Shown here in pieces: positions 1 to 63,441 of a stretch of DNA of 64,000 bases (its first letter is position 1; each line of letters starts with the position of its first letter). The translations under genes were made by a program, and so were the position numbers. The notes below the pieces were generated by a model. That model searched no databases. It saw nothing but the letters and a program-made list of their open reading frames with translations, and had not been told where the DNA came from. Source of the DNA: Kappaphycus alvarezii (taxonomy: Eukaryota; Rhodophyta; Florideophyceae; Gigartinales; Solieriaceae); contig NADL03000072.1 in the NCBI GenBank assembly GCA_002205965.3, positions 366,679-430,678 of the forward strand. Reading direction: 5' to 3'.

Positions 1-575
1 ACGACGGTGGGTTGTGTAGACAAGGCGGCAGATGAAGCGTCGAAGAACCGTACCCATGGCGATGTGGCGGAGACTGTCGCCGCGGACCTTTGGGATGAAA
101 TTGAGTACAAATTTTGCCAACGAAATAACTAAAAATATCAGTACATATTGCTTTGAAATCATGAAGAACTAATAATTTTTAATTAGTCGTATGTATCGGG
201 CCAGCGTACAGCAGCAGAAATTCCTTGCTCTTTAGAAGTCACCCCTCGCCAGATGGGAACGTGGGAAATCTCTTGCTCCAACTGTGGTACCATGACGATG
301 GATACATCATCGGACGCCACGACCACCTCCGCAAAGCACTCGACATCCTCTCCTCGCTCGATGCAACAACCCGAGGACTTCATCTTTCGCTGTCTAAATG
401 TAAGGTTTGGTGTCCTTCTGCACCGCTTGAGGTAGGGGGAAAGAGTTGGGTGTTTTACTCTTGGAAGATATATCCGATCTATCCCATTGTTTTCCAGACA
501 ACCGCAATCGACTCAAAAAGGTTATACGACACAGTAATGGGGAAGGAACTACGCTCCCTAAAATGCTACCTTCAG

Positions 576-947
576 TGTTGAAATAGAATGAATTGATTTA
601 CCGCTTCGGTACCCGAGTCGGGTACAAGTTGCCTACTGAGTCAAACTAAATACTAACCGATCGGTAACGACTTGAACAAAAGTCTAAGGGAGCCACTACA
701 ATGATTCTTACCCGTACGGATTAATTACTGCTGACGCAGTGAGAGCGACACTAGACCGTTCGGATAAGTGAGACGACAACAAAATACGAATAGACTGGCC
801 CTTACCGGTGTTTTGTTGCCCCATTGTAATTCCGACACGGTGAAATAAAACAGAGAATACATGCACATATGCATATACCATTGAGGTTCCGGCTTCCCGT
901 TCTCGGTAATTAGATTTTGGATGACTCAGACCTGAGTCATTCCGACA
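576..947 (-). repeat. Copia-A 3' LTR
   Basis: This copy of the 372-base LTR is the downstream one in element orientation. It differs from 5359-5730 by an extra a near 581 and a missing a near 630. It contains seven CCG-N(2-4)-CGG pairs by eye. The pol stop codon lies inside it, at 937-939. Confidence 0.95.
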
Positions 948-3663
948 CGCCCCCTCGAGGGCCGGGCAAGGCGGATTCCGATATGCAACCAAGCCGTTCT
1001 CGGTGTTGAAGCAGTGCATCTCCAATGATGATCTTGGTCAGAATGTCTGCTCTGTTTTCTGTCGACGGAGTGTAGTGTACTGTAACCGTTCGGTGAGATA
1101 CAGCATCCTTGACGTAGTGATACCGGATACCAATGTGCTTGACCTTACGGAGTCCCTGTACATCTTCCGTCCATCGGATAGCACCCAGGTTGTCCTGGAA
1201 AAGCACAGTAGCTCTCCGTTGCGGACAATTCATTTCCTTAAGAACCGACCGGACCCAGACTACTTCACGCACACAGGTGCTGAGGGCGTAAAACTCCGCT
1301 TCGGAAGTAGACAGTGTAGTTGCAGACTGCAACCTAGAACTCCACACAACAGGACCACCGTTGACGGTCAACAAATAACCAGATCGGGAGCGACGATGAG
1401 AGTGATCGCGGGCCCAGTCCGCGTCACTCCAAGCCTTCAGCTTGACCTGTCCATCACCGTTCGGTAGAAAGATACCAATGTCCTGCGTACCGATAAGGTA
1501 GCGGACTACATGCTTGGCCATCTTCCAGTGCTTGACTTCCGGTGCGGACTGAAACTTACCCAACATTGATACAGCTGTAGCAATGTCCGGTCGGGTTCGG
1601 GTAGCCAGAAAAAGTAGCAAACCTACGATTCTCCGATACGGTACGTTCTCCATTGCCCTTGTCTCCGTAGCGGTCAATATCTTCCTCTCTTCGTATAGAG
1701 GGTGCGATAGCGGTAGCGGGGAAGGTGATGGATTTGCATCCTTCATTCCGGCGGCCTCGATGATCTTGCTGATGTACGGTTGCTGTGACAAGAAAGTACC
1801 GTCCGGAGTTTGTTGAACTTGCACACCAAGGAACTGCGTACACTCTCCGAGTTCGGAAGTCACGAATTGCTTCGACAGCTCCTTCTTCACATCAGATACT
1901 GTACTTTCCGACCCGGTAATCAGAATGTCGTCCACATACACCAACAAGAACACCGTTTCGGAACCTCGAACGCCAATAAAAAGACAGTCGTTAGACTTTG
2001 ACATTCTGAATCCGAGTCGGTGTAGTACCTTAGCAAGGGTCTTATACCACAGCTTAGGAGCTTGGCGTAGACCGTAAAGGGACTTCAGAAGTCTGACAAT
2101 TTTCCGAACGGAGTTGAACGATGTCCCAGGGATGTGGGGAAGCCTGACCCAGACTTCTTCCGATTCGGACAGGGGTGCGTACAGGAACGCCCCCTTAACA
2201 TCAAGGTGCTGTGTCTTCCAGCCCTTGGCTCCGGCTACTGCCAACAATATCCGAACGGACTCGATGCAGGCGACAGGAGCATACAGCTCGAACTCCAGAA
2301 AGTCTGCCTCATCTTGGAAGTTTCCCCTGGCCACTAATCGGCCTTTAAACCGTTTCGGATACCCTTTCTCATCTCTCTTCAACTTGAGGATGACTCCGGA
2401 CGGAAGAATCTTAACTCCTGGTGGGGGCGGACTTCTCGTCCCATGTCCGGCATCACGGAGGGTGCTGTACTCCTCGTTGATTGCCTCAATCCACTGCTTC
2501 CGCTCGGATGACTTGAGTGCCTCGGACAATTTGGGGTCGTCCGAGGTTGAGACGAACTTCGGCATGGCCTTATGACTGTACCTCACCGATCGGACAGGAC
2601 GCAAACCGGGACGATTCGAACTTCTTGTTTCCGGTTCGGGTTCCTCTTCTCCCTCATCAGGGATGTGGGTGAGCATGTCTTCCGTGATCGGATGGCCAGG
2701 TCCCTCACTAGAGGAGGAGGATGACGATGAGGAACAATCTTCGTCCCCGTCGTTTTTGCCACCATCGCCCCCTGACCCACTTGGGTCAGTTACTGTAGTT
2801 TCCGATCCGGACAGCGGGATGTCGACATAATCTGAGTCAGAGTGGTCTTCTCCTTCGTCAGACGACAGTTGGACTTCCCCGCTACGGAGCAACTGTAAGC
2901 CAGGGAACTCATCCTCATACGCACAGACATGTTTTGTCCTGACAATTCCTGATGCGGTCAACACGAGGTAGACACCTCCACCGTCATGTCCCACACACAG
3001 GCCTTCCTCTAACCTTTGACTGAAGGTCGGTAGCCTTTCCGCGACGGGGTGATAGAGCATACGACAACCGAACGGCTTGATGTACTGTAGCTCGGTTGAC
3101 TGATACCCGTACACGGAGTCAAAGGGAACTTTCCCTGTCTTGGAGTGCAGAACCATGTTCTTGCACGCGGTCACATGCCTGAGGGCATAATGCCAATACC
3201 CGCTCGGTAGATTTGCTTGCAACAGTGCAGCACGGGTCATTGACATGACAATTCCATGATACCGTTCGGACAGCCCATTTGATGCTGGGGTATAGCTTGT
3301 AGTCGTACTGACTTCAACCCCATCCGCCCGAAGAACGGCCTGTGCCCTTTGAAACTCCTTTCCGCCATCGGTGTGCAAGGACCGGACAACTGTGCCCGAT
3401 TGCTTCTCGAATTTCTTGACGAACGAGAGCACGGCATCTGACGCTTCACCTTTCTTCCGGACGGGCACAGTGTGGACGTACCTGGAGTACTCGTCCACGA
3501 TGGTGACAAAGTACTTATGTCCTCCCTCAGACGCCGTTCGGATTTTCCCCTTAGTGTCAGCGTGTAAATGACCAAGCGCTCTTGCGTTGGTCAGACTTCC
3601 TTGATACCGTTTACGGAACTTCGACTTGGTGCATACCACACAGCCTTTCGGTGTGGGGACCAA
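937..3663 (-). CDS. Copia-A pol: integrase, reverse transcriptase, RNase H
   Basis: This 908-residue open frame encodes the catalytic part of a Ty1/copia polyprotein, which integrates and copies the element inside virus-like particles and the nucleus. It opens with the CVVC half of the integrase zinc finger. The HLRLGH half lies just upstream in the same frame, so the true frame extends to about 3800. The integrase D,D,E residues are in HADTKG, LHTDGGKEF and NGLSERYHG. A Ser/Glu-rich linker near residues 270-345 follows. The RT has the YVDDILITG active site, and RNase H has SDADWARD, STSEAEFYAL and the KHIGIRYHYVKD box typical of copia. The stop lies 11 bases inside the LTR. The domains look complete and probably active if fused to the upstream frame. 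Confidence 0.93.
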   Translation of the reverse strand: MVPTPKGCVVCTKSKFRKRYQGSLTNARALGHLHADTKGKIRTASEGGHKYFVTIVDEYSRYVHTVPVRKKGEASDAVLSFVKKFEKQSGTVVRSLHTDGGKEFQRAQAVLRADGVEVSTTTSYTPASNGLSERYHGIVMSMTRAALLQANLPSGYWHYALRHVTACKNMVLHSKTGKVPFDSVYGYQSTELQYIKPFGCRMLYHPVAERLPTFSQRLEEGLCVGHDGGGVYLVLTASGIVRTKHVCAYEDEFPGLQLLRSGEVQLSSDEGEDHSDSDYVDIPLSGSETTVTDPSGSGGDGGKNDGDEDCSSSSSSSSSEGPGHPITEDMLTHIPDEGEEEPEPETRSSNRPGLRPVRSVRYSHKAMPKFVSTSDDPKLSEALKSSERKQWIEAINEEYSTLRDAGHGTRSPPPPGVKILPSGVILKLKRDEKGYPKRFKGRLVARGNFQDEADFLEFELYAPVACIESVRILLAVAGAKGWKTQHLDVKGAFLYAPLSESEEVWVRLPHIPGTSFNSVRKIVRLLKSLYGLRQAPKLWYKTLAKVLHRLGFRMSKSNDCLFIGVRGSETVFLLVYVDDILITGSESTVSDVKKELSKQFVTSELGECTQFLGVQVQQTPDGTFLSQQPYISKIIEAAGMKDANPSPSPLPLSHPLYEERKILTATETRAMENVPYRRIVGLLLFLATRTRPDIATAVSMLGKFQSAPEVKHWKMAKHVVRYLIGTQDIGIFLPNGDGQVKLKAWSDADWARDHSHRRSRSGYLLTVNGGPVVWSSRLQSATTLSTSEAEFYALSTCVREVVWVRSVLKEMNCPQRRATVLFQDNLGAIRWTEDVQGLRKVKHIGIRYHYVKDAVSHRTVTVHYTPSTENRADILTKIIIGDALLQHRERLGCISESALPGPRGGVSE
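948..958 (-). other. Copia-A polypurine tract
   Basis: Read on the minus strand, a GAGGGGGCG run directly abuts the 3' LTR. Such a tract primes plus-strand DNA synthesis. Its position fits exactly; the assignment rests on position and composition. Confidence 0.7.
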
Positions 3664-3722
3664 CTTGGGAAGAATTCCGTCTCTGATGTGCCGCCTGATC
3701 TGCGGCAGAGTGAGGGCGTGGC

Positions 3723-4451
3723 CTAAACGGAGGTGCCACGCGTTTGCCGAATTGGTCTTTGTCGTATTCTTTTCCCGGACGGTCCTGTACTCGACTGCTG
3801 GACGGGGATTACAGGTTCTTCTTGAACGACTTCCCGATCGGTCTCATCAGGGGATTCAAATTCCCCTTCACTTTCCGTGTCGGTGCACTCACTTTCGTCA
3901 TCCGACAAAAGTTCGGGAGTACTGTCCCCTTCTTCGGACGGTTCTTTCTCCGAAACTTCTACTTCCGCACGGTTTGATTGGGCACTGTACTCCCTGGCAA
4001 TAGCCATTGACGCGCGGACTTGATCCTGATCCAGTGCTGTAAGGTCAACCGGAACGGATTCCTGACGGTCAGAGATGTAGAACAACCCATCTCGACCTTG
4101 CTTTGCATACCCGATAACGGAGTTACCGTCCTCGGTGTCAATCAACGCCATCCCTGGCATGAACAACACGTTGATTCCCTTCTTAACGAGGGCCGGGACG
4201 GATAGCAGACTCATTGCAGTGTCCGTAGCGACCAACGTATCCGACAGTGACACCCGAACGGGACCTTCTTCACTGTACCAAGTTACCGGTCGGACTCCTT
4301 TCTCATCTGCAATTACAGTCGAATCATCTGCCAGTGCGATGGAGACGTCGCAATCCGTTCGGTTTTCCACACGGTCCGCAAACGGTGTCATGTGCGACGT
4401 CGTTCCGGAGTCCAACATCATCTGGTCAGTCCTCCGTTTCGGTTTGGCCAT
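3723..4451 (-). CDS. Copia-A protease and linker
   Basis: This 242-residue frame starts MAKPKRRTDQMMLDSGTTSH, with the DSG active site of a copia aspartic protease at about residues 14-16. The family's later conserved stretch SLLSVPALVKKGI follows, then GLFYISD, which resembles the pre-integrase region. The C-terminal third is acidic and Ser/Glu-rich. The last 25 or so residues are probably out of frame: near 3800 a one-base shift restores a path into the integrase zinc finger. The frame overlaps the end of gag by 34 bases in another frame, which could be programmed frameshifting or a simple indel. The start codon is only the first ATG and may not be used. Confidence 0.85.
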   Translation of the reverse strand: MAKPKRRTDQMMLDSGTTSHMTPFADRVENRTDCDVSIALADDSTVIADEKGVRPVTWYSEEGPVRVSLSDTLVATDTAMSLLSVPALVKKGINVLFMPGMALIDTEDGNSVIGYAKQGRDGLFYISDRQESVPVDLTALDQDQVRASMAIAREYSAQSNRAEVEVSEKEPSEEGDSTPELLSDDESECTDTESEGEFESPDETDREVVQEEPVIPVQQSSTGPSGKRIRQRPIRQTRGTSV

Positions 4452-5275
4452 AGCAGAGCGCTGCTTGGACTCTTCTTGGTCCTACTGCTCCGTTTCGGTT
4501 TCTTGTCCTCGACGGATTCATCCTCCGAGGCGGAGCTTTCGTCTTCTTTAGACGGCTTCTTGCCACCTTTGCGGCGGCCGAGTCGGTTGTTTGGGTTGTG
4601 TGGGTTGTCCCAACAATCCGCTCTCTTGTGTCCCGGACGGTTGCAAAAGGTGCACTTCAACTTGGCTACCTTTGCCGTTTGGCCTTTCTCCGAATCGGAC
4701 TTGAGAGCTTTCCACTCCTCGATGAGCCTTCCCGCAACGGACTCCCACGTTATGTCCTTCTCGGCTAACGTCTTGATAGCGGCCGTGACGGGTGCAAGCT
4801 CAGGGACCCCTACAGAGGCCACGAGAATACCGACGGTGAGAGTGTCGTCGAGCTTGGCATCCATGTTGCGGAGCTCCTCGACGATGCCAGCCATCTTGTC
4901 GATGTGCTTGGCCATGTCTGACTTCAGACTCTTGTACCGAACGGAAACCAACTCGGAGATCTTGGTAATCTTGGAGGCAGTTGACGTAGACCGATAACGG
5001 GCATCAAGCTTCTCCAGCATCTCCTTAGGTTTCCCTATCACGGTACGGACGACACGCAGGGCGTGATCACTGAGGGCGCCAACAACAATGTTGCTGGCCT
5101 GACGCTGACGCTCAGCGAACTTTGCTTGAGCGTCTGTATTTCCCGATACGGTAGAGGTAGACAGTACCTCATCGAGATCCTTGGCCGAGCACGCGGCCTC
5201 CACACGGATTCTCCACAAACCGTAATCGGACTTGTCGTCAAGAGGACGAATACGGAGCTTCTCTTGATCTGACAT
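4418..5275 (-). CDS. Copia-A Gag
   Basis: This 285-residue structural protein forms the particle and binds the RNA. The N-terminus has the copia Gag pattern (LDDKSDYGLWRIRVEAAC), followed by a helical body. A CCHC zinc knuckle, CTFCNRPGHKRADC, lies near residue 209. A Lys/Ser-rich basic tail follows. The length is normal for a copia Gag. The start at 5275 is the first ATG after the primer-binding site, about 70 bases away. A decayed relative lies at 20690-21100 with the same WRIRVE and TASKI landmarks. The ORF is intact. Confidence 0.9.
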   Translation of the reverse strand: MSDQEKLRIRPLDDKSDYGLWRIRVEAACSAKDLDEVLSTSTVSGNTDAQAKFAERQRQASNIVVGALSDHALRVVRTVIGKPKEMLEKLDARYRSTSTASKITKISELVSVRYKSLKSDMAKHIDKMAGIVEELRNMDAKLDDTLTVGILVASVGVPELAPVTAAIKTLAEKDITWESVAGRLIEEWKALKSDSEKGQTAKVAKLKCTFCNRPGHKRADCWDNPHNPNNRLGRRKGGKKPSKEDESSASEDESVEDKKPKRSSRTKKSPSSALLWPNRNGGLTR

Positions 5276-5344
5276 ACTGTACGACGACCGAAACGGACAA
5301 CTAAGCGGTGTTAAGATACGAAATGCAGGGCTAGACAGTAGAAC

Positions 5345-5358
5345 CTGGGCCCATAACC
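5345..5358 (-). other. Copia-A primer-binding site for a half-tRNA
   Basis: Read on the minus strand, GGTTATGGGCCCAG directly follows the 5' LTR. It is complementary to the anticodon arm of eukaryotic initiator tRNA-Met (CUGGGCCCAUAACC), not to a tRNA 3' end. Drosophila copia is known to prime with a cleaved initiator-tRNA half, and this site matches that mechanism. Confidence 0.88.
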
Positions 5359-5730
5359 TGTTGAATAGAATGAATTGATTTACCGCTTCGGTACCCGAGT
5401 CGGGTACAAGTTGACCTACTGAGTCAAACTAAATACTAACCGATCGGTAACGACTTGAACAAAAGTCTAAGGGAGCCACTACAATGATTCTTACCCGTAC
5501 GGATTAATTACTGCTGACGCAGTGAGAGCGACACTAGACCGTTCGGATAAGTGAGACGACAACAAAATACGAATAGACTGGCCCTTACCGGTGTTTTGTT
5601 GCCCCATTGTAATTCCGACACGGTGAAATAAAACAGAGAATACATGCACATATGCATATACCATTGAGGTTCCGGCTTCCCGTTCTCGGTAATTAGATTT
5701 TGGATGACTCAGACCTGAGTCATTCCGACA
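5359..5730 (-). repeat. Copia-A 5' LTR
   Basis: This is the upstream LTR in element orientation, 372 bases, nearly identical to 576-947. It is bounded by the primer-binding site on the left and the TTCAG target duplication on the right. Confidence 0.95.
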
Positions 5731-6524
5731 TTCAGGCCAGCCTTGAGGCAGTGCACGCCTTTACCCGAGAGAACTCAGGCAGGAATACAGTGCAGGTACA
5801 ACTGTCTTCAATGCCGCCGTAGGCTCCGCACAGTTCAGTACACAATTTTTCACCTCTCATGTACCTTCCTCGAAGCATTCCTCAACGCATCGTCGATATT
5901 GAGAATACGCAAGTGGCATTTGAGCTCATGCGCAACTGCTTCGGGGTCTGTAAGATCGGGTATATATTGCTCGTAGTACTGCCACCGTGCACCGCACACG
6001 GTGCTGCAATATTCGAGGGAATGATGGGCGTGGTGTTCGAACGTTGGCTGGAGGAGTCCTCGATTCTGAAATTTTTCGGGAACTGCAACTACCTGTCAAA
6101 TCCAAGGAGGAAAAAACCGTCCCTTGGACTAGGATTCACGTCCTCGAAAGATATCGCAGGTGCCGCGTTTCTATCCTCCAGTTCAGCCTCCAACAGGCTG
6201 TGCGAAAAGGTTTTGCCAGACTCCATCAGGAGTCACACAACATAAGAAGACGCAGGCTCACCGGCTTTGGTCTCAATCCTGCTTACAGGGATTCTTCTGT
6301 TCAATGCCTTTTGCTCAAACAAAACACCTTCGCAAAAGACACTCGCGGAAGCAGTCCACGAGGCTGTGCAAGACGGTATACCTCTCGGCGACTTAAGGGG
6401 CAGTCTTTTCGTGCATCGATGGCGCCACCACGGGCAAAGGAATGGGCGTAGTGTTCCCCGTGCCCGGGTCCGAAGACTAGTATCGACGCCCCGAATTCTC
6501 GACATGGCTTCAATACTACTCTAA

Positions 6525-30744: not shown

Positions 30745-31703
30745 TGCAAGTTGCTCAAAATCCCTTGATTGATCCCGTCGTAATCAGAGGGATGGGATTT
30801 ACTTGTGAGTTATATACTTATCTGAATCAAGTAAATCAGCTCTATCTCGTTTGATCCTATGCATTCACTAAATGTTCGTGCTGTATTCATCGGCACGACC
30901 TGACTATAAGACAGTTTCTATGAGAACCCTGACAAATTTTGTGATACTAGCGCTTCAAGACTTCTGATTGGTTGATTTATACCTGACAACAAAAATCTCG
31001 TCACATACGCATATGTATTTGTACCTTCATGTAACCCCCCATAAAGCAAAATCGATAGTCCTCTTCCACACACGCGCCTCTCGCAGAGTTTTAACCTCGG
31101 ATGACACATCAACACGTTTCAATATATTACAAACATGTGATTCACGCGAGTGCCGCACACGTGACGCTTCAACTATGCCCCCCTCAGGCCATCAATCGGC
31201 ATCGTAAATTGTGTGAGTCCCGTCGTTTCCTTTCATCACAGTACACATAACACGTAGAGACTCAGTACGAGCCATCCTATAGTAATTTTCCCCTGGTTCA
31301 GCAAATGCAGCAATAATCATCCAAACAAGAACGACTTGGAGATGACCTAACAATTAATTCTTGGAAAACAAGGTTGTTTGATCTAAGATGGAAGTACGCA
31401 CTCATCTCTGATCCCATCTCTCTCCCTAGTAAGGCCTGGATTCAGTTAAATATTTTCTTGCGCACTTCTATTTCACGAATAGACATCAATCTCGACGATC
31501 AGAGAGCAAAGACGTGGCAAAGCCCTTCAATGTATCGAAACTGTGCTCCAAAGTTTACTTAAACTGGGGGAATTATGAGTCATTTTAGTGTTTGGAAGAT
31601 GTTGAAGGTGTATTCACCCGGTGAAAGTGTGTAACGCGGGAAAAGGTATCACTGAGTAACGCTAAATAATTACGTCTTCCCTAAAAGGCCGCCTCGACGC
31701 CAG
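30745..31703. other. Probable copia LTR remnant plus unassigned sequence
   Basis: By position the part next to 30745 should be the LTR of the Gag fragment to the left. A stretch near 31000 (cacatacgcatatgtat) resembles the same part of the Copia-A LTR. I cannot define the far edge. No gene is visible up to 31703. Confidence 0.4.
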
Positions 31704-33313
31704 TGTTAGGCCCAGATTTTTTTTTCGCTGTCATCTACAGGCCTATAGTTTACTGTAGTACCTCTCCTTGTCCAAATTTGCTTGTAGTTCCGGTCCTTCC
31801 TCGTCCTTCCTGATCCTCGCTTATCATTACCGCGGTCCTCTCCAAATTACTTCCGTTTTATCTAGATATTTTTATACTGTATCTACCCTCTGAATCGATC
31901 CCGAATCAAGTTCTTTTTCCTTTTTTGCTTACCTTCCCCTCCAAATTCACTTTTTTATGAGAAAAAGGGCGCAAATGCACTACAAAAAAATCCCTTGCAG
32001 ATTTGTTTCACCTATTTCTAATCTATAGAACCTGCCCAGCGAGCCTATTTAAACCCCTTTATTCCAAGTTTTAAACGTCCCGTCATATTTTGCTCATCAC
32101 ATCTCTCACCCGCACACACCCGAAACACCCTCCATTACCTCCCATCCATTCCCCAAACTTACCAAAATGACCATCTACGCCCCTCGAAAATCATTTCCAA
32201 AAATCGCCATCCCGCCCCCTAAACTCTATTCCCTACTCCCTTTCGGACCTACTGACCGCGAGACTACCTGCGCCGGCAAACCAAGAAAAAGGTCATCGAA
32301 TTCGGCGTCGCCTCTTTATCGAGGATGAGGCGGAGGAGGTAGGTAAGGGGCGGGAGTGGGACATCGAGGAGGGAGCTGGGGAGAACATTTGAGGAGTGGG
32401 TAGCCCCTGGATTGGTCTATGAGGTGAATAACGAGAGGACAGGGAGGATGAGAGGAAGAGGAGATGAAGGGGAGGATGAGGAGGAAGAGGAGAGGAAGGG
32501 GAGGATGAGAGAGGAAGAGGGAGGAAGGGGGAGGATGAGGAGGAAGAGGAGGAGGAAGGGGAGGATGAGGTTGAAGAGGAGGATGAGGATGAGGATGAGG
32601 ATGAAGAGGAGGGAGAGGATGACGAGGACGAGGACGAGTTGGATGAGGGAAATAGGGGCATGGAAAGTGTTGTACTGGTGGGGCCTGGATTGGAGAGTAT
32701 GGATCAAGTGGTGCCGACGCTGGAACCAGATGGAGATATCTTTAGTAGTTTAGATATCTCCCAGGAGGGAATAGAGAGCCTTGAGCTATTCGCAGATATT
32801 TGTGGGGACTGCTTGGACAGCATGGATATTTAGAGGAGTTGTTTGGATCTGATTTAGAGAATGGGAAATAAGAGGACCTCATTGATTGTTAGTTTCTTAG
32901 TATCTTCTGTTTATAGTATATTGTCCACGCAATTTGTTTTTATGTATTTCCTGGTACCTTCTGTAGTTTTGTTCGGACTTTAGGGGTAGCCAGAAGTCTA
33001 TATGAGCTGAGTAAACCGCTTCCTCATGGAGAGGTCAAACAAGTTGGCAGGCAGCTTCAAGCCCAGTCCCAAATAGTTAGGAAGTTGAGAGTCAAATTCA
33101 GACCCAAGAAGCATTTATTTTACCCTAGTCACTAAGCATAGGTGGTAGACCCTGCCCCTTCCATACTTGCTTGTAGCCCATTCAACTGCCTTCCCTATCC
33201 ACTCCTTTTCGTTCGTTCAACTATACCACGGTAGCACTTCTGTCGCTTGCAACACCTCCTTCTTGGGGAAATTGGTTCTGAGGATCTCTTCCCCTGCTGA
33301 TTTATCCCTAACA
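31704..33313 (+). repeat. Long LTR carrying an acidic ORF, copy 2
   Basis: At 1,610 bases it runs from TGTTAGGCCCAG to CCCTAACA, a perfect 7-base terminal inverted repeat TGTTAGG/CCTAACA that fits an LTR. It aligns with 7091-8610 and 54983-56513. The flanks (gccag and gaccc) are not a duplication, so it may have recombined. The right flank is LINE-B. Confidence 0.8.
32167..32833 (+). pseudogene. LTR-encoded acidic protein, copy 2 (frameshifted)
   Basis: A one-base loss just after the ATG (accatctacg where copy 1 has accaatctacg) and others break the N-terminus. The C-terminus is open at 32639-32833: MDEGNRGMESVVLVGPGLES, then MDQVVPTLEPDGDIFSSLDI, ending ICGDCLDSMDI. An expanded GAG/GAT tract lies at 32440-32640. 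Confidence 0.65.
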
Positions 33314-34545
33314 GACCCCCTCCAAGCTGGATGAAACGGATGGCGGCGGCGGCTTGGGACCGAGGAAGTAAAATGTTACCGTAATCTGCATACCAAGCAC
33401 TCAGGGCAGGTGAGAACTTCTCCTGTATCGATAGCAAGAGAGGATGAAGAGCCTGGGCAAAGAGCACGGGACCGAGGGATCCCTTGCTGAGGGCCTTCTG
33501 AACCGTGGACATAGTTGGGTCCGAAAGCAAGCTCTGTAGGAGCATCGCAACAAGAGTGTACCCACCCTTCGAGGCCTGGGGCACGCGTTTGTGCAGCTTT
33601 TAGAAGGCGCTGGCAGGAAATGCAATTGAAAGCGTTGCGAGCGTCAATCTGGACCAACAAGTGGTCGTGGAACTCGGATCTCTGGAAAGACGACGTACGG
33701 ATGAATTATTGCATCGGTGCCGTTCTTGACGCCTACCACGACTGATGGGCAGAAGGTAGGGGCTTAGGGCGGGGGTCTTCGTGTACCGCGAGCCCAGAAA
33801 TTAGGAGTCGGTAGAGAAGCCCAGCAGAGATAGGACGGATTCCCCCGTTCGGCTTCGGCAGCGCTGTTAGACGGCCCCCGCAGGAATACGGGCGGCACGC
33901 GGCCGGTAGATCGCCGTTCAAAAAAAGGATGAGGAACTTTGTCAGAGCATGAAGGCAGTCTCTGCTGGGCGTGACCCCACCTGCCGGGCGAAGCAGCATT
34001 CGCAGGAACACTGGGTATACACCATCGGCCCCAGGAGCTGTTGAAGAATTCAAGCCGTGAATGGCACAGCGGACATCCGAGACCAAGAACCTGAGCGCGG
34101 GAGGCTAACGGTGGGGGCTCAAGGGAGTGATTGAAAAGGGGGGCGGGGGATGAAGAAAGCCAAGGATTGAAATGTAGCTTCGCTGGGGAATAGTGGGGGA
34201 TCAACTTGGAAAAGGACTACTGTGGCCGGGAAGGGCTACCCCGGAGAGGAAAGGGCGGCATCTGCGAAGAACTTTGTCAGGGCGGGCGGGACCGGGAGGG
34301 GCTGGAATCGGAGAGGGGAGGGCGGAGGTGAACAAGGAGGTAGACTCGTCGAAGGGCTATCATAGAGGCGGCTGGAAGGCATGCCGATGCGGTCAACAAT
34401 GCTGGAGCAATTTTCACGGCGGCAGCGGCCAAGAGCGCGGGGGCTGCTGTGTCGAAAAACCAGCTGGGTATGGCAAGAAGTTCCAGAAGGGCTCGAGTCT
34501 TGTGCTCTGGCAAGGGAGCGTATATAACGCGGTATAAGGCTGCGA
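33314..34545 (-). pseudogene. LINE-B reverse transcriptase fragment
   Basis: Minus-strand frames give SSTAPGADGVYPVFLRMLL, CGGRLTALPKPNGGIRPISA, LVQIDARNAFN, EGPQQG, PLGPVLFAQALHPLLLSI and WYADYGNIL. These are RT motifs of an RLE-type LINE different from LINE-A. The active site reads YADY, so the second Asp is lost. An Ala-rich helix (LLELLAIPSWFFDTAAPALL) lies upstream. I assign it to LINE-B, whose C-termini lie at 53-58 kb, by inference only. It is cut by the LTR on the left. Confidence 0.7.
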
Positions 34546-36849
34546 AGTATAAGTCGTAAGTCGCTGCCTGGACTGGACGAGCAGTAAAGGTGAGAAAAGG
34601 GAAGGGGGCGGAGAGGAGGGAACGGAAGGTTAGGAGAAATTTGGAATGTTTTTAATCCATGAAAAATGAGTTCAGCTGTTTCCTGAGGGATGTCGTGATA
34701 TGTTGAAAGCTTACAATGTAAAGAATTGGCGCGAAGCCGTCAAAACGCTAGAAAACTGGCTAGAGGCCAGCCAACAGGCACGCTGCATTGAACATCGCTG
34801 CCGCTGAGGCATGGCGCTGTGTTAGGACTTGTTTGACCCTTGCATAGGTCTCCCTCGCCCTTCGTAGCGACGTTGGGTGCGACGTCGGTTAGCAACGCGT
34901 CGGCGTCCGGGTGTCATCTTCCGAGGGTAGAGATGGGGACAGGGACCAGCCTTCTTCTGGCAGAAGTCGCGATGAAGGACTCGTATCTGTTTCGCCGTTC
35001 TTGCTGCGTTGAGCGAGGTGAGCGGGTTGAAAGTCCTTAATATCCTGTTGGAGGGGGCTAGGAGGTTGACCGCGTGACATCAAAGAGTGTGTTCCGCCAG
35101 TGCGTTCCATTGCGCGAATATCAGGTCTTGTGGGGTGGACCCCCTCTTCGCGGCTCGATAACTGGATGTCGCGCAGCATTCCCAAGATCTCTCGTCAATA
35201 AACTGACCTGACGGTCGTGTCTTCGCGCCCTTTCGCCCCAGTGCAAGCAGTGCAACAGTTGGTAGCCGAAACAGTCGAGAGTTTCGGGCAGTTCTGCTTG
35301 AGGCATGGTGTTCCGGATGCAAAAGCGGGACTTGGCAATAGTATTGGAACCATATCGAGAATTCCATTGGTTCAGTACTTGTCTTAAGGCCCGGAGATGG
35401 GGTGCAGTAAACTCTATCTTTCGCACCGGGGAGCCCCAGAGGGGCACGGAAGGCCTGCTGTCTGTGTAGTTAACATTTACTCTTCCTGCACTCGCCCGTG
35501 GATGGCGTCCGATAGTGTCTTCTGTGATGGTGTTTTATTTGAGCAGAGGGCACTGAAGGGGAGAATCCTGGATTGGGAGCAAGAGATGGACCAAATCTGG
35601 TGCGCCTCCACGATGTCTCGGTTCGTTGCGATATCCGTAGTTGTCGCTGAAAGGAGGCTGTGCACAGCCTGTTGGACGCTGTGCTGGAGGCGAGGAAGGC
35701 TGAAGCTACGATGACTTCGCCGAGGTGAGTCTTCTTCCAGTGGTGGCTTCTTGGCAGGAATCGGTTTCACATGAAACTGCAGTTCTCGGAATATTTCGGG
35801 TCGAGGACGCCCTGGCAGTGTTCGCACACAGCTCTCCATCATTGCATCAAAAATTGCAGTGCCTTCCGCAGTGCAAGCTTTTGGCACGACTCGTAACAGG
35901 TATCCGAGCTTACAGACCCCGAAAAGCTGCGCAGGAGCTGGAAACGCGATTTGCGTGCTCTCCAAGGCGATGATGGTGACGAGGAACGACTTCAGGGACT
36001 TCAAATGGCCTGTAAAGAGCCAACCGGGGCGTTCATTACCACTGTTCCCCGCTGTACACCTGTGCGAGTTCTCTTGGATAGAGGGGTTTCACAGACTCCT
36101 GTGGTGGAGTTGGCCACCAGATTTGGTATTCCGGCACTGCTAGAGGCACTTCTAGAGGCAGTACCCGAGCTGCGGCCTCTGGTGATGACAAGATGTCCAG
36201 TGCCTTGCGGAGCTGGTCGTTTTTTGCAATGTTTGTACCCATCATCATGGTACAAGAGCTAAAACAGCAGGTTACCGAGTTGCTGCTCTTCGTCATCCCC
36301 TGATTTCAATAAACGTTGGATTTTGAGGATAACGGGTGCAGCGCAAAATCGAAAAGGAGCCCACCAAGTTTTTCCCCTTGTTGCGTCCCTTGCACGCTCC
36401 GGATTATATGAAGACCGAACCACAAAAAAGCGGGCTCAAGTATGTAGTAGTATACAACCCACGGGAGCAGATCAGGGAACTGATTTTTTTTGCTGAGGAA
36501 AGCTGTCCGACAGCACAAAATGAGTCCATTTTTGAGATCAACAGTCAGCAATGAGTATTAGAAGCTGTGCCCGAACTTCTGTACGACACTCCGGACTCCA
36601 CGGACGACGGAGTGAGTGCTGGATCGGGTACCAATGTCAACCTGCGGTGGTTGTAGGTATTTTGTGTCTCTCGCGGAGGCTTTTGTTATTAGGCAACTAC
36701 CTGTCAATCTGCGTAGCATTTCTCCTACGGCTAATGGTCTGGGTGTCAGGTCTTTCTTGGCCAAAGGGGTTAGAGGCGCGCTAGCTATCAAAGGGCAAGA
36801 GCGGCTGGGGCCTTTCCGGCTGCTAAGATGTTCACCATTTTAAACAGGG

Positions 36850-48135: not shown

Positions 48136-51100
48136 GGGGGGAAACGTTTGGGTGTTTTACTGTTGGAAGATATTTCCGACCTATCCCATGGTTTTCCAGA
48201 CAACCGCAATCGACTCAAAAAGGGTATACCTACAGCGTAATGGGGAAGGAACTACGCTTCCTAAAATGCTACCTTCAGGCCAGCCATCAAGCAGGCCGCA
48301 TTGGACATGACGGCTGCTGCAGCGTGCCTTTGCATCAAAACCCCCCGAACCTTTCCGTACGTCTCCAGTGCCCTCACAGCCACGTTTCTTGCCACGTCAT
48401 TTAGCACTGCACATGCATCCGGGTGCCAACCTCCAAGAGTGGAGATTGGCACAGGCACGAGCCTGCCTCTGGTGGAGGTCGCGATAAAGGATTGATATCT
48501 TCTCTGCTTTGCATTTCGCGCCGCATTCAGAGAGGACATTGGGTTGAAGGCCCTTACTCTTCTGTTGGAGGGAGCGAGGGGATTCACGAAGGTAACATCA
48601 AAAAAGTCGGTCCCTCCGCTGCTTCCCATTGCCTGGATGTCTGGTCTCGTGCGGTGGAGACCATGGCGTGGCTCTACAACAGGATGACGAGCAGCTCTTG
48701 CCAGGTCTTTCGCGAGAAGGGTTACTTGGCGATCGTGTCGGTTGATCCTTTGGGCTCCATGCAAGCAGTGCATCAGATGATCGCCATGTACATCGAGTGT
48801 GTCCGGGCAATTCCTTCTCGGGCATGGCGTGCCAGGGTGAAAAAGTGGGACTTGACAGTAGTATTGAAGCCACACCGAGAATTCTCGAGGGTCAATGCTT
48901 GTCTGTAGTCCGGGGCATGGGGGACAATACACCCATTCCTTGGCTCCCGGGAGGGCCATAGACGCGCGAAACGCCTGCCTCCTCGAATCCCCAAGAGGAA
49001 TTCGTTCTTGCACTGCTTCATGGATTGCGTCCGTCAGCGTCTTTTGCGATGGTGTTTTTTGCGAGCAAATTACGCTGAACGGGATAATCCTAGACGGCAG
49101 GCAAGAGGTCGACCATCTCCGATGGGCATCTGCAGCTGCTTCGTATGTTCCTAGTCCTTAATAGGCGTTGGGAGCAAGGTCTTGCAAAGCTTGCTAGATG
49201 ATGAGCTAGAAGCCAAGAACGCCGCAGCCGCGATGTTCTTCGCGGAGGTGAGTCCGATCCCAAGAGATGGTTTTTTCTTGTCCTTTGGTGTGACCGGCAG
49301 CTGGAGTTCTCGGAATACTTCCGAATCCAGTACTCCCCCTGCCAATTTTCGAACACAGTCCTCCATCATCCTGTCGAACTCTTCCGCTCCTTCTCCAGTG
49401 CAAGACGGGGGCACTACCCGCAACAAATAGCCTACTTTGCAAACGCCAAAACAGTTGCGCAGTAGCTGGAATGCCACTTGCCTATTCTCAAGGTCAGCAA
49501 TGGTCTCGAGGAATGGTCTGAGGGATGAGACATGGTTCGTAAAGGACCGTGTGGTGTATTCCTTAGTACCGACGGGGGCGTTCAGGACGGAAGTACCCTC
49601 GCTGTACTCTTGCTTAATCCCGTCTGGGTAGAGACTCTGTGCTGACCCTGGAGGGGCTGTAGGCCACCAGACGGTGCACTTCGGCAGCGACAAGTGCAGT
49701 CCTCGGCTTTCAGCATCCACGGAGCGAAGTACTTCGATGGCTTTGACGAGTTGGTCGTGGCGCCCGATTAATGTACCCGTCATCGTGGTACCACAGTTGA
49801 GTAACAACTTTGCCAAGTCTCTGTTCTCCCCTTCCTCTGAACTGAAGAGTTCTTGTATTTTGAGGATAATAGGGTGCAGCACCAGGTCGAAGAGGAGGCC
49901 TCCAAGATTGTCTCCCTGTTGGGTCCCGCAGACGCTTCTTATTGTGTGACTACCTATCCACAGGAATGCGGGCTCGTTTGCATAGCAATATGAGACCCAA
50001 GGATGTAACTCTGGGAACAGCTGTCTCACCGCGGTCAGAAAAGCGGGTCTGCTGCACATATTAAAAGCGTTCTTGAGATCGACAGTCAATAACCCATATG
50101 CTGGGTTACTGCCGTACTCCTGACGACTCGTCGGATTCCGTGCACGACTGTGTCGGTACCCGACTTTGTGGCGATACCCACTTGGAGAGGTTGGAGGTAG
50201 TCTGCCGCCTTCTCGGACACTCGCTTCATTAAGCAACTACCGACTAACCTGCGCAGCGTCTCCCCAACGGCGATTGGCCTGGGCGACATGTCCTTCTTCG
50301 CCAACGGGGTAAGTGGAGCACCAGCGATCCAAGGAGCGAGAACGGCTGGTGCTTTTCCAGTTGCTAGAACATTAACAAGTCTCGTAAGAGCTGCCAAAAA
50401 GCCTGAATTCCCCGATGAGGATGGACATCTTAGCAATTCTACCAGGTGGCAAGGCTTTAGACCTGAGCCTCCGGGAGAGGATCCTGGTTTAAAAGCCCTG
50501 ATAGCGCCAAGGACTTCGTCTTCAGTGAGCCGTGGAAACTGCAGTTGGTAGAAGATGTTCCCCTGACTGGAGTTGTTTCATCGGGGGCCTGCTGGGGATG
50601 TTTATCGATAAGGGCATCGATTACATCACTGGTAGCTGGTAGAACACCTAGCGAGCGCAAAGCTTGTGCAGCCTTTCCGTATGCACCTTCTTTGGCCAGT
50701 TTTGTCGCCCGTTTTACATTGGCCTGTTGCTGGTCCGAAGTGGACCGAGCTCGTGCGGTGCGGTGTTTGGGCTGGTCGAGTGCTTGCGCCCATAGTGTTC
50801 TGAAGTGCCCCGCGTTCCATAAATCTATTCTTTCCCTCATTTTGTCCGTAATAGAGTGCCACCGGTATTCACTGGAGCAGGAATCTGACGAGTGAATGTT
50901 CGTGAGCATTACTGCTGGGAACAGAAATATTTTTGTGAGCGCCTGAGTTGCTCGTGAATTATCAGCAAGACAAGCGTTCACTGCATCGTCCATCGACTTT
51001 GCATACGTCTCTGCTAGACACCACGGAACTTGGTCGGTATATGCGACATGACTGGGGTGTGAGTTGTGAAGATCTCTTTTAGAGATGGCAGAGACTGTTC

Positions 51101-51787
51101 AGAAAGATCGGGGGTTTGAGACGCGATGTCGGGCCTCTGGTTTGGAGGTGCGGGAGCTGGGTCATCTGAAACCGGTACCGGTGTAATGAAGTCGACCTCC
51201 TCCAAAGGAATGTGCTCCAGGACAACGTGATCCATGCCAGCGATTAAAAACTGTTCCTCCGCCAACTTTCCGCGATTAATTGCTGCTTTTCCTCTCTGAT
51301 CGGGCTGCGAATGACTATACCTCCTAACCAGACAGCCAGCCGACCGTCTTCGTTATTATAGTCCGCAATGACCCTCCAGTGCCAACAAACAGCCTCTGAA
51401 CCGCGGGTTCGTTAAACGAGTATTCTTATAATGGGGGAAGCAGTCTCCAATCGACGATTTGGTGCCAGCAATGTTACGGCGTGCAAACTTGATTTTTCGA
51501 ACGGTTATCTCAGCCAAAAATTTCGAAATTTTAATGATCTCCTGGGAGATCACGCCGGTACGAATCGATCACGATTTGAGCTGGAGGTAGGGCAGCGTGA
51601 CCAAGGTGTGGGAACGGGCCGATCCGGGTGAGAAATCCCTCGAGAGCTGTGGCAAGGCTCCGACGGGGGGTGGATAGACAGAGTGGTAGAGAACTTCCGT
51701 ACCTCGGGTGGAGATAGAGGTAATGAGCGTGATGCGTGCCCAAAGGAATTGCTAGGAAGGAAGTATGTCAGTAAGAAACGGCGGAGA
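48136..51787 (-). mobile_element. LINE-A copy 7, near full-length
   Basis: This is the best copy of the family, about 3.65 kb. The antisense 3' UTR (48136-48260) begins at cccc and has the same terminal sequence as all LINE-A tails. The coding region follows up to about 51265. A shared left boundary with copy 2 at ctccgccgtttcttac (about 51787) suggests the natural 5' end. There is no poly-A tail; the 3' end is TTTCCCC. No clear target duplication was found. Confidence 0.88.
48261..51265 (-). pseudogene. LINE-A protein: RT, zinc knuckle, RLE endonuclease
   Basis: One protein is spread over frames 51014-51265, 50457-50993, 50086-50436, 49151-50236 and 48261-49013. In order: a Pro-rich N-terminus; a helical region (AKEGAYGKAAQALRSLGVLP); RT with APLTPLAKKDMSPRPIAVGE, LLTVDLKNAFN and GTQQGDNLGGLLFDLVLHP; the active site YHDD at 49779-49790, which falls in a neighbouring frame; thumb FGVCKVGYLLRVVP; then in the last frame (250 residues) a zinc knuckle (C64, C69, H76, C83 in CPRRNCPDTLDVHGDHLMHC) and the RLE core RPDI at 123-126 with DV at 139-140. 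This layout is that of R2-like LINEs that nick DNA and prime RT on the nick. It is frameshifted, so not active as read. Confidence 0.85.
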
Positions 51788-52515
51788 CCCCAACGCGGGC
51801 CGCGCGCACACGGTCCGCGCCGCGAGCTGTGCCGTGCGCGCTGAAGCAGCTCAGGTGGGAGAGGGAGGGAAGGGCTTGACGGTTCACAGTGAAGACCAAC
51901 TATTGGTGGGGAAAGATCTAAATGTAGAGCCGTATATGCCCTGTTCGGGCGATCAAGATGGCGAATGTGAGTTGGCCTTTGAGGTTTACGGAAATATGGC
52001 AGATGGTGCCGTTTAGGAGCTGGATCTGAGTGACGGTGAGTTAGAACCGAACGGAAACTTAACAATTCCGAACGACGATATCAAGAGAAATAATTACCAC
52101 TCGATGGAAATGATTCGATGGAGATTGGCCATTCGCAAGGCATTCTCGCTGTTTTCGCTAAGCTTCCACAGCGTGGTGAGGCCATGTGGCGCGTGCTTGG
52201 TTCTACGCTTGGTATCATGAGGATAGCGCTTGTCAAGGCAATAGCAAGAATCGCTGATAATCGAAGGAGGAACTTGGAAAACGCGGAGGCTAACGGAAAA
52301 GCATGGAGGAAGTGGAACGTGCCCTAGCGGAAGAGTACAGTTATCCCGCTAATGAAAGTATAACGGTTGAGGAAAATTGGTTGTCTTGCAAAAACGCCCT
52401 GTATCATTTTTGCTTTATATTTCACTGATTCATGGCCCGTAACAGGCTAATGTTGACGTGGAGCCCATTTTGCCCATAGAAGATGCGAGGAAGAATGAGA
52501 GAGAGAAGTTGATGG
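51788..52515. other. No gene recognised
   Basis: A plus-strand open frame (51765-52016) begins in LINE-A sequence and has no known motif. The following 500 bases could be the lost upstream part of the SET gene, but I find no conserved landmark. Confidence 0.35.
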
Positions 52516-52521
52516 CAAGCG

Positions 52522-53148
52522 GTGAGCGAAAACCCTGTTCCTCGGATTGATTCTTGGTCTTACCAGAGGCTAAAGTTGAGAACGTTGAAAGGATGTTCGT
52601 GCACGACTGGGCAATGCTGCACCTCGGCTTGTACTTGCTGGGAGCACAGCAGAGCGTGCAGCCCGGATTTGTGTGACTGCGACTGCTCCATTTTGCCAGA
52701 CAGGATATCAATACACCGACGGCATTGCCGTAACATTCCCGCTAACACTGCCCTGCATAAGAAGACTTACGTGGGAAGGCCTGATATTCACGGTTTTGGT
52801 CGTTTTGCCGGGGAACTCTTCGAGTGTGGTGACCTTGTTGGGGTGTATAAAGGACAATTAATTGCCACACATGCTGCTGACATGATTGGGAGACTTTATG
52901 ATGCCACTGACCGAACATACCTATTCAACGTAACCGAGTCTCTTGTAATCGATGGCGGATTGCTAGGAATTAAGGCGAAGTTTTCCAATCAGACGAGGCC
53001 AGGGGCTTGTGAGAACTGCGCCAGCAAGTTTGTAAGGGTTCGTGGGATGCATGCGTAGGGGTATTTGCGAGTCGTATAGTGAAGCCAGGGAGGAGTTCCT
53101 GTCTGACTACCGTGTCATTGGGGAAGTCCCACTGTGGGCACGAAACCA
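52522..53148 (+). pseudogene. E(z)/EZH2-like CXC-SET methyltransferase fragment
   Basis: The frame 52522-53058 starts with a Cys-rich CXC (pre-SET) segment, CSCTTGQCCTSACTCWEHSR, then ACSPDLCDCDC, like the end of the E(z) CXC domain (CDPDLC). The SET domain follows: DIHGFGRFAGELFECGDLVG, YKGQLIATHAADMIGRLYD, and TYLFNVTESLVIDG. Where active enzymes have NHS the sequence reads SNQT, so the catalytic His is lost. A one-base shift near 53045 moves the end (EAREEFLSDYRVIGEVPLWA) into the next frame, and LINE-B begins at about 53149. The N-terminal 600 or so residues of the family are missing. E(z) proteins methylate H3K27; this copy almost certainly does not. The wording of the SET core looks fungal to me, at moderate confidence. 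Confidence 0.75.
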
Positions 53149-53985
53149 CCAATGTGTGGTAAATCTTTATGGGTTGTACAATGTCGCACAGAACCGTGCG
53201 GAGGGTATTCATAAATTAACTACGGATGCGGGCGGTGGGTAGAAGCCTGTCGCGCCTGCATTATTTGGAGACTAAATGCAAAACGGGTAACGAAGCCACG
53301 GAGCTCCTGTTGAGGGGAGGAACCGCGACGGAAAGCAGCGAAGGAAGCAAGGCGGCGGAAAAAAACCCTGCCGTCGTCGCCCAAGGCGCCATAGATATCA
53401 ATCCCGAAGGGAGAGGAGGATATCGTTTTGGCTGCAGTGAGTGCCGTAATGACGATTTTTCTCGCGCTCTGCGAGAGTTACGGCAGCGCCTGCGATAACC
53501 GTTCTTGGCGAAATGTGGCGGCGTGCAGAGGGGGGGCAACAGTAACGTCGACAGCGATATCGGTACTGTGAAGCCCGTATCCAGCGGGTATGTAAATGTC
53601 CATTCGTATCGCGGGGGATTCCGAATGCCCAGATGGGTTGGGAACCTGGCAGAGGAGCGGATGTTCGACGAGGGCGACGATCCCAACCTCCTTGTAGTAG
53701 CAGGCAAGAACGTTGCAGAGGATGTGATGACGACGAGTCATTCCCTCTTCGTATTTGCAGGTCAACGCGTGTTGACCACTTGGAACTAAGAAGGGTGCGA
53801 TGTCGGCCGAGCGGCGGGAGCAGACCGGACAGCGAGTAGATCCAGGGAATAGCACGATGCCGAGACGTAGAGCCAAATAATGCAGGCGCGACAGGTTTCT
53901 ACCCGCGGCCCGCATCCGTAGTTAATTTATGAATACCCTCCGCACGGTTCTGTGCAACATTGTACAACCCATAAAGATTTACCAC
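53149..53985 (-). mobile_element. LINE-B fragment with inverted 3' ends
   Basis: On the minus strand, codons from 53866 down to 53270 or so encode LRLGIVLFPGSTRCPVCSRR, GQHALTCKYEEG, RMDIYIPAGYG and STDIAVDVTVAPP: a zinc knuckle followed by an RLE core, as in LINE-A but a different family. Its 3' UTR follows at 53149-53270 (minus). A second 3' UTR in plus orientation is joined to the 5' side at 53868-53985, giving tail-to-tail inverted repeats of about 115 bases. The same gene end is found at 57120-57890. Confidence 0.75.
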
Positions 53986-54039
53986 CACGTCTGACACTTC
54001 TAGCAGGGTGCATCTATACGGAGTTTGGAGAGAAGTGCA

Positions 54040-54095
54040 GAAGCTGTGGGTGTTTTTCTCTTGAAAGATATATCCAATCTATCCCATGGGTTGGT
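54040..54095 (-). repeat. LINE-A 3'-end remnant
   Basis: Antisense terminal LINE-A sequence (gggtgtttttctcttgaaagatatatcc), diverged. It interrupts a LINE-B tail-like block that is uninterrupted at 28345-28430. Confidence 0.6.
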
Positions 54096-54169
54096 GGAGA
54101 GGGAAAGGAGAAAACGGAAACGGGCCTGCGCCTCAGTGACCCTGTATCTACATCGACGGGTAAAGTCAG

Positions 54170-54982
54170 ACAACGAAAAAGGGATTGACCAGTTGTGCCA
54201 ATGCCTTGGAAGGCAACCGTGTTTCGACATGTTACCAAAATAACGTCCCCACACGGCAAAATCGAGATTCCATGATGGAGCAAAATCGCCTAAAGTCTCA
54301 AAGCTTTATTAAATATGAACTACTGTATGTGGCCGAATGAATCTAGAAGAGGAGGAATTTGCGGGTTATTTTAATGTATGGAAGATGTGGTCGGTTGTAG
54401 TAGAGTACCGTGCGATGCTCATCTTCCGTCATTAAATTTTTTCACACAAATGAGGGGCTTCAATGCTTTATCTAAACCTTCCGAAATCCTTTGTCGATGA
54501 AATATTGCATTACATAGAAAATGTTGGCCAGCTAGACTTCGAATTGAATTTGGCATGGATGTGGAATATTGCATATGGACGTTTATGTGGGCCAACAAAA
54601 TGAAGACTTTCCTTAAGATGGCCCGACAGTTCGTGATACTCGCTTTGGCCACACGACAAAACAATGTACTGTACAGTGCTCCACATGGAGGTATTCCCAT
54701 CTTTATCAGATAGAGCACATGCAGCGTAACGGATTGAAGCAATTTGAGTTGACTCCTCCTTTCTTCACAACTCCAGACACTGCTGGTCGACAGAAATGAA
54801 AGATCATGACAGAAAATGAAATACCGTGAAGTTGAAAGAACCGCCATTTTCTGCCCTGCTGGGTCTTTTGGACAGCGAGGGAATAGATGGAGTTCGGGAC
54901 TTGTCCGAGGGTTCGATTTGTGCTAACCGAATGGAACGCTGCCGCGGCCATTATGTCTAATGCGGGATAGTTGCTTACTGGC
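54170..54982. other. Unassigned, ending in a LINE-A scrap
   Basis: No gene is recognised. A 142-residue open frame (54419-54847, minus) has no known motif. The last 45 bases (54938-54982, plus) match the LINE-A C-terminal codons (gccattatgtctaatgcggg) and are cut by the LTR that starts at 54983. Confidence 0.4.
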
Positions 54983-57993: not shown

Positions 57994-58041
57994 ATAGATC
58001 GAGTATGTCTCCCAACAGTAAAAACACCCAAACCTTTCCCC
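57994..58041 (+). repeat. Minimal LINE-A 3'-end insertion (48 bases)
   Basis: Terminal LINE-A sequence (ctcccaacagtaaaaacacc to tttcccc) is flanked by ttccac at 57988-57993 and 58042-58047, a short but perfect duplication. Sequence from 58050 to 58465 shows no gene. Confidence 0.6.
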
Positions 58042-58465
58042 TTCCACGGGGTGGTAGGCGACGAGAGTTCCAAGTTCTCACGCCGTCACGCCACTCATTT
58101 TGCATCATGTCGTATCCCTCACCCCCACCGGAAGATCCACGAATTGCCTATGCGCTTTGCCTTCTGTTCGCCAGGAATGCAAGCTCTTCAGATTCTCACG
58201 CCCTGTCTCCCTAGTAGCTTGCATTCTAGCCAAGCTCTCCGCGAACGATTTTCTCTAAAAGGGGAGAATGAAGGGGTAGTTAATATTGCAAGATATATTT
58301 TTAGTTTTACTTATTCCCTAGCGATCCAGGTCCTAAAGGACTGTTGTCATGCTATTGACCGTACTGCTGATGTGTGTTGTCCTAGTTATCTCCTATTACA
58401 TATGACTCGGGTGCGTTGTCATAGATCAAAAGAATCAAAATTTTAACGCTTTATTCAAGTGACAC

Positions 58466-59014: not shown

Positions 59015-59027
59015 GTTATGGGCCCAG
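59015..59027 (+). other. Copia-B primer-binding site, overlapping the gag start
   Basis: GTTATGGGCCCAG directly follows the LTR and is complementary to the initiator tRNA-Met anticodon arm. The ATG inside it (59018-59020) opens the gag frame. Confidence 0.85.
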
Positions 59028-59934: not shown

Positions 59935-59942
59935 CATTTCAT

Positions 59943-63424: not shown

Positions 63425-63441
63425 ATTTAATTCAATATTTC

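Follow-up and report, generated by a model that had tools for sequence, protein, structure and literature searches.

Evenly spaced everted CCG/CGG sites in a Copia retrotransposon of the red alga Kappaphycus alvarezii: possible family-specific self-recognition marks

Introduction

Why would a retrotransposon carry one short palindromic word from end to end, through its protein-coding sequence as well as its long terminal repeats (LTRs)? The question is raised by Copia-A, an LTR retrotransposon of the red alga Kappaphycus alvarezii, which lies at the beginning of a 64,000-base stretch of contig NADL03000072.1 (the window) and contains 75 everted triplet pairs of the form CCG-N(2-4)-CGG. An initial annotation of the window noticed the pairs and took the motif build-up in the VANDAL transposons of Arabidopsis as their nearest parallel. 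The present analysis adds the even spacing of the sites, the presence of site-bearing relatives, and other Copia lineages that use different words, here called dialects. It is highly probable that the sites have been selected at the DNA level. By analogy with the VANC proteins of VANDAL elements, the sites may tentatively be regarded as family-specific self-recognition marks bound by a dimeric protein, which would keep the copies of the element open or active.

Number of sites compared with chance

The 75 sites at positions 576-5730 comprise 29 pairs with a gap of two bases (N2), 32 with three (N3), and 14 with four (N4). These spacing limits are sharp, with two CCG/CGG pairs at N1 and three at N5, and the opposite orientation, CGG-N-CCG, shows no comparable enrichment in Copia-A. 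Dinucleotide shuffles of the whole element give a mean of 4.98 sites and a maximum of 12 (n = 1000). The region between the LTRs has 61 sites against 4.5 in dinucleotide shuffles, and each LTR has seven against means of 0.18 and 0.21 (maxima 2 and 3, n = 1000). The initial estimate of about 70 pairs far above chance, one per about 70 bases and seven in each LTR, is therefore borne out, the measured mean distance being 68.6 bases. It had also stated that long interspersed nuclear elements (LINEs), Gypsy-A, and Copia-B, as it placed them in the window, have no comparable density. This is confirmed, since no 1-kb bin between 6 and 64 kb contains more than four sites; positions 6001-64000, scaled to the length of Copia-A, contain approximately 1.6.

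All but one of the 61 internal sites lie within an open reading frame (ORF). Codon-preserving shuffles, 2000 for each ORF, give a mean of 7.0 sites in pol (maximum 14, 36 observed), 2.5 in the middle ORF (maximum 7, 13 observed), and 2.75 in gag (maximum 8, 12 observed), with the site at 4434, in the overlap of gag and the middle ORF, counted for both. Sites occupy all three codon phases, as had been claimed for gag and pol, though with a bias (9/18/9 in pol). The pol protein permits a site at 80 positions, and 36 of them are used where 7.1 are expected. The shuffles and the permitted-position counts together uphold the claim that codon use cannot explain the sites, and they rule out chance and base composition as well. 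Among 33 proteins compared, metagenome ones included, Copia-A pol also ranks highest in permitted positions per residue (88 per 1000), a weak comparison because the others vary widely and the count for pol takes in the sites that it actually uses. The bases that flank the sites are mainly A or T, and C follows the CGG in only 1 of 75. Tandem repetition is ruled out as a source of the sites, as the element contains a single 2.7-copy array of a 9-base unit.

Even spacing along the element

The sites are not only numerous but evenly placed. In simulations of random placement (n = 20,000), the second LTR was omitted, leaving 68 non-duplicated sites, and a 9-base exclusion was applied. The coefficient of variation (cv) of the distances is 0.48 against 0.85 for random placement, a value matched by none of the simulations. 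The longest gap between site centres is 167 bases against 299 expected, and only 3 of 20,000 simulations have one as short. Gaps above 147 bases number four against 6.8 expected, which alone is not significant (1402/20,000). Evenness exceeds what the encoded protein would give: pol sites are more regular than random picks among the permitted positions (cv 0.42 vs 0.75, 0/2000), and so are those of the middle ORF (0/2000 for uniform picks, 0.0045 for weighted picks). Helical phasing shows no clear peak from 9.5 to 11.75.

Copies of Copia-A in the genome

The domain order of Copia-A is that of the Ty1/Copia type, with gag, integrase ahead of reverse transcriptase, two LTRs, and a 5-base target duplication; its features are collected in Table 1. 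The two LTRs are 99% identical to each other. When compared with Pfam, the three ORFs show Copia domains only, with no additional domain and no VANC protein. The copy in the window is broken into frames, and two other copies (L028 and L030) have stop-free frames of approximately 1000 codons. These two copies also contain a 306-codon stop-free frame on the minus strand, antisense to the gag and protease region (L028:939-1856 and L030:941-1858), which is probably due to chance.

Table 1. Features of Copia-A, with the start positions of the everted CCG-N(2-4)-CGG sites (window coordinates)
Feature	Position	Strand	Details
Copia-A LTR retrotransposon	576..5730	coding on -	TG...CA LTRs, ttcag on both sides, Copia domains
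Target-site duplication ttcag	571..575		copy on other flank 5731..5735
Target-site duplication ttcag	5731..5735		copy on other flank 571..575
LTR, 7 everted sites	576..947		601, 613, 657, 712, 756, 832, 897
LTR, 7 everted sites	5359..5730		5383, 5395, 5440, 5495, 5539, 5615, 5680
Internal everted sites, n = 61	948..5358		994, 1086, 1216, 1245, 1296, 1358, 1457, 1539, 1587, 1633, 1665, 1799, 1847, 1908, 1953, 2012, 2104, 2160, 2251, 2350, 2396, 2500, 2586, 2631, 2682, 2802, 2879, 3039, 3068, 3107, 3200, 3262, 3362, 3457, 3534, 3607, 3775, 3834, 3875, 3965, 4049, 4111, 4126, 4193, 4254, 4286, 4355, 4376, 4434, 4490, 4525, 4578, 4633, 4690, 4732, 4783, 4937, 4991, 5143, 5220, 5288
pol ORF (integrase and reverse transcriptase)	937..3663	-	36 sites
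Middle ORF with Pol_BBD match	3723..4451	-	13 sites
gag ORF with zinc knuckle	4418..5275	-	12 sites

At least 42 matches to the Copia-A LTR, with 96-100% identity, are present in the 336 Mb assembly of 884 contigs, where the best 40 of 132 candidates were scored. A beta-tubulin piece is divergent: among at least 120 of its 1562 hits, the named sequences come to about 74%, and one unnamed sequence to 87% over 86%. Among the 20 regions L021-L040, fifteen loci have two LTRs, and 13 of these have exact 5-base duplications. The flanks of L027 and L038 are identical, so that these apparently represent one insertion and the fifteen loci probably fourteen; the common flanks also indicate that some contigs are duplicated. 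The fifteen two-LTR loci contain 66-75 sites each and the five single-LTR loci 7-45. LTR matches cluster on some contigs: C738 has them at three places inside about 80 kb, C193 at two places some 27 kb from each other, and C488 at two places some 7 kb from each other. Such clusters hint at targeted or centromeric insertion.

Conservation of the sites in relatives

In five relatives with 69-77% DNA identity to Copia-A, 15-30 of their 17-33 sites fall at positions aligned with Copia-A sites. Of the 75 sites in Copia-A, 52 are found intact in one or more of these five. When seven relatives are taken together, 18.6% of site bases (556 of 2994) differ; the figure is 25.4% for non-CpG C/G and 26.5% for unpaired CpG C. 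When site bases are defined by an outgroup, 21 of 311 differ between Copia-A and its relative L054 (6.8%) against 225 of 2175 other C/G (10.3%, p = 0.053), and the divergence of site bases is lower at every codon position. In a test based on the Copia-A sequence, paired triplets are better kept than unpaired ones in L046, L048, and L049 (p 0.0055, 0.0025, and 0.011, respectively), with no significant difference in L041, L047, L054, and L042. The same test based on the relatives gives p ≤0.004 in L041, L046-L049, and L054, and 1 in L042, and is biased because the arrays are old. The age of the array and its non-random origin are firm, and present purifying selection is suggested.

Decay or methylation at CpG is ruled out as the driver of the pattern, as the relatives show no CpG hypermutability: 373 of 1409 unpaired CpG C have changed (26.5%) against 3131 of 12,303 non-CpG C/G (25.4%). 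The observed/expected CpG ratio of the window is 0.86. A role of the sites in undoing CpG methylation is therefore without support, and other silent marks are possible targets.

Other Copia lineages and their words

All triplet pairs with gaps of 0-12 bases were scanned in Copia-A, its seven relatives, the rest of the window, a Copia contig from a bacterial assembly (L055), and ten more Copia loci. In L045, whose pol is 44-45% identical to that of Copia-A, and in its sister L056 (tree support 1.0), the top pair is CCG-N3-CGG, found 20 and 12 times, respectively. Codon shuffles give 4.9 against 20 in L045 and 3.0 against 11 in L056. The N2/N3/N4 counts are 2/20/6 and 1/12/5, and the N2 share differs from that of Copia-A (p 9e-5). 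Of the 15 mapped sites in each, seven and eight stand at Copia-A positions, where 2.4-2.5 are expected.

A second, asymmetric dialect is found in the related loci L052, L057, L058, and L059. Exact GACC-N4-GGAC occurs in them 12, 4, 9, and 5 times, and 0 or 1 time in each of 22 other sequences. The shorter ACC-N4-GGA occurs 20, 11, 15, and 18 times against 3.2, 1.9, 2.9, and 3.0 expected, and ranks first in the scan in L052, L058, and L059. In L057 it comes second, with a modest log10 p of -5.3 that is close to the values of the strongest chance pairs in other loci. Copia-A itself has 13 ACC-N4-GGA, ten of which are CCG-N2-CGG sites, so that only the exact GACC-N4-GGAC separates the dialects. 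The asymmetry of this word makes its strand readable: 34 sites lie on the coding strand and 30 on the opposite one, although these are not 64 independent events because the four loci are related and have some positions in common. Its sites do not significantly share positions with those of Copia-A. In every dialect, CC and GG stand 4 to 6 bases apart.

Neither word is in excess in L044, L050, L051, L055, and L060-L065. Two of these, L044 and L050, have LTRs that are 96-98% identical, and no enriched word, and the trait is thus not needed for transposition in general. The sites are specific to the Copia-A family and some of its kin. The reverse-transcriptase tree, as rooted, places the lineages that carry a word on the same side of its split, together with L065; supports within this side are 0.02 to 1.0, and the node itself has no value. 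L065 has five CCG-N1-CGG pairs in 4.5 kb, which represent either a further dialect or chance.

No relative of Copia-A was found in viral contigs by protein, pattern, or alignment. The contigs of prokaryote genomes yielded one stray Copia contig, L055 (WTJV01000047.1), with 49% identity and no site; it is filed in an Amoebophilaceae bacterial metagenome-assembled genome, encodes a Copia gag-pol, and is probably eukaryotic contamination. Copia-B, the second Copia of the window (58000-64000), is AT-rich (about 35% GC), and the proteins most similar to its own come from unnamed metagenome sequences and one EukProt transcript. The scan also found strong spaced GGA/GAG/CTC repeats at 31000-36000 and 51000-56000, probably purine-rich low complexity.

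Comparison with known systems

Several systems share one or another property with Copia-A. The Leu3-type Zn2Cys6 sites of fungi have the same everted CCG-N-CGG geometry, but at a fixed spacing and in single promoters. The DNA uptake sequences of Neisseria and Haemophilus are short self-identity words spread through coding sequence; unlike the Copia-A sites, they serve bacterial DNA uptake, are less dense, and comprise one word per genome.

Sirevirus elements, which are plant Ty1/Copia elements, contain 8 to 32 palindromic boxes each, with a CGG-CCG core in 12 of 13 tabled elements (PMC2829016). In the sections covered of that work, the boxes vary between elements around the common core and stand mostly outside genes, chiefly in the LTR and ahead of ENV; in two elements a few are also found where ENV begins. 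A regulatory role is proposed for them there but not tested (PMC2829016). They resemble the Copia-A sites in that an element of the Copia superfamily carries many palindromic CGG/CCG boxes. However, as far as described there, the Sirevirus boxes have the inverted orientation, form clusters, and usually hardly differ from one another inside a single element, whereas the Copia-A sites are everted, have only the half-sites in common, and tile gag, pol, and the LTRs. Copia-A therefore does not carry the Sirevirus motif as such, its enrichment being everted and distributed throughout the element. Within the literature covered, the repeated CGG-CCG motif is still the closest published parallel (PMC2829016), closer than the VANDAL elements put forward in the initial annotation.

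The VANDAL comparison nevertheless gains force, because the word differs between Copia lineages of one genome. In VANDAL families, VANC binds motifs that are particular to each family and lie in non-coding tandem repeats (PMC5735166, PMC10398659). A short motif is built up within a transposon family and related families have different motifs, as in the three Copia dialects. On the other hand, according to the parts covered of these reports, VANDAL elements are DNA transposons with a dedicated VANC protein that acts on DNA methylation (PMC5735166, PMC10398659), and Copia-A is a retrotransposon with sites in coding sequence, no tandem repeats, and no extra domain found. CoLT, a centromere-enriched Copia of Phytophthora, is likewise a Copia element with clustered copies, but no repeated binding word appears in the parts covered of its description (PMC7082073). 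A literature search of titles and abstract openings, with few subscription journals, found no description of LTR elements whose coding sequence contains palindromes at even intervals.

Proposed reading and rival explanations

The CCG-N(2-4)-CGG pairs are predicted to be double-stranded DNA sites for a dimeric, sequence-specific protein that would contact the two half-sites over the gap of 2-4 bases. A protein dimer on double-stranded DNA fits the symmetry of the half-sites, the short and flexible gap between them, their A/T flanks, and the even cover, and a dimeric DNA-binding protein would be the natural reader of such sites. Selection has probably built the array in such a way that the distance from one site centre to the next never exceeds 167 bases. 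Since related Copia lineages of one genome use other dialects, the readers probably differ between families and may evolve with them; a family-specific reader is somewhat better than an even bet. The likeliest use would be self-recognition of the element's DNA copies. A factor, whether the element's own product or one taken over from the host, could load along a whole copy and hold its chromatin open or active, in the way of VANC on VANDAL. This chromatin role, anti-silencing or activating, is plausible by that analogy, at slightly less than even chances.

Several results weigh against such a reading. The search for a reader protein found none, and the three ORFs encode ordinary Copia domains only. 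The spacing in gag is not more even than picks among permitted positions (p 0.35-0.37). The copies with the GACC-N4-GGAC dialect have been disrupted, and within single ORFs they show a small excess of the word (pooled 22 vs 5.4). Sites are readily lost from old copies, and the support for present purifying selection is weak: between Copia-A and L054, site bases compared with unpaired CCG/CGG give p = 0.21, and the outgroup-defined test against L042 is not significant (p = 0.45 and 0.059). Given ancestral presence, paired and unpaired triplets are kept about equally (e.g., 47/49 vs 37/40), and none of eight outgroup pairings reaches 0.05, the best being 29/30 vs 32/40 (p 0.068).

The borderline tests for present purifying selection are what would favour an origin as a by-product, whether of base composition, codon use, mutation bias, or the encoded protein, or as the remnant of an earlier array now out of use. 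Such an origin is very improbable, as composition and codon use are excluded by the shuffles and the permitted-position counts, and a relic would still require a past selective origin. Equally improbable is that the sites act at the RNA level, whether by folding into small hairpins or by serving as packaging signals for Gag. An everted site could pair with itself and genomic RNA would contain many of them, but the 2-base loop of 29 sites is too tight for a hairpin, and the flanks do not lengthen the stem (21 of 68 complementary vs 23.8). The asymmetric word also lies on both strands (34 and 30), which together with the flanks argues against an RNA signal.

The main rivals of a role in chromatin are the coating of complementary DNA (cDNA) and a general host factor. 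In the former, integrase, Gag, or a host factor would coat the extrachromosomal cDNA, for instance against self-integration or for packing or import. A coat would suit sites that cover the element evenly, both LTRs included, and a reader encoded by the element would suit words that differ by family. In the flanks compared, which are those of a few copies, no case of one Copia-A inserted in another was noticed. This explanation is nonetheless unlikely, as L044 and L050, with their 96-98% identical LTRs, manage without any enriched word, and no binding domain beyond the ordinary Copia ones is found in the three ORFs. A little less unlikely is that the elements exploit a host transcription, insulator, or centromere factor, with no co-evolving family-specific reader. 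Host factors such as Zn2Cys6 proteins typically use CCG/CGG half-sites, and a search with PF00172 (Zn2Cys6) gave no match in this genome and none in 14 control genomes either. The clustering of LTR matches would also suit a host factor, as CoLT is enriched at Phytophthora centromeres in the account covered (PMC7082073). In contrast, the different words of related lineages in one genome speak against it, and sites inside gag and pol would be superfluous for a promoter role.

If the self-recognition reading is extended to all the dialects, each Copia family would embed its own palindromic word at short regular intervals through coding and regulatory DNA, to be read end to end by a co-evolving dimeric protein. 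Such a self-identity code is a speculative possibility, somewhat short of even chances, and would use synonymous freedom and perhaps amino-acid change. Should it be true, then together with the CGG-CCG boxes of Sirevirus it would point to an old and general habit of Copia elements, possibly with a Copia-encoded reader.

Significance

Most known cases of motifs accumulating in transposons concern non-coding DNA, such as the tandem repeats of VANDAL and the LTR boxes of Sirevirus. In Copia-A, evenly spaced, binding-like sites run through gag and pol themselves, apparently written by selection, and the words differ between related families of one genome. DNA-level self-recognition by a retrotransposon is thereby made directly testable, and the sites offer simple probes for fishing out the reader protein. 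They may also be relevant to the CGG-CCG boxes that plant Copia elements carry without an explanation so far.

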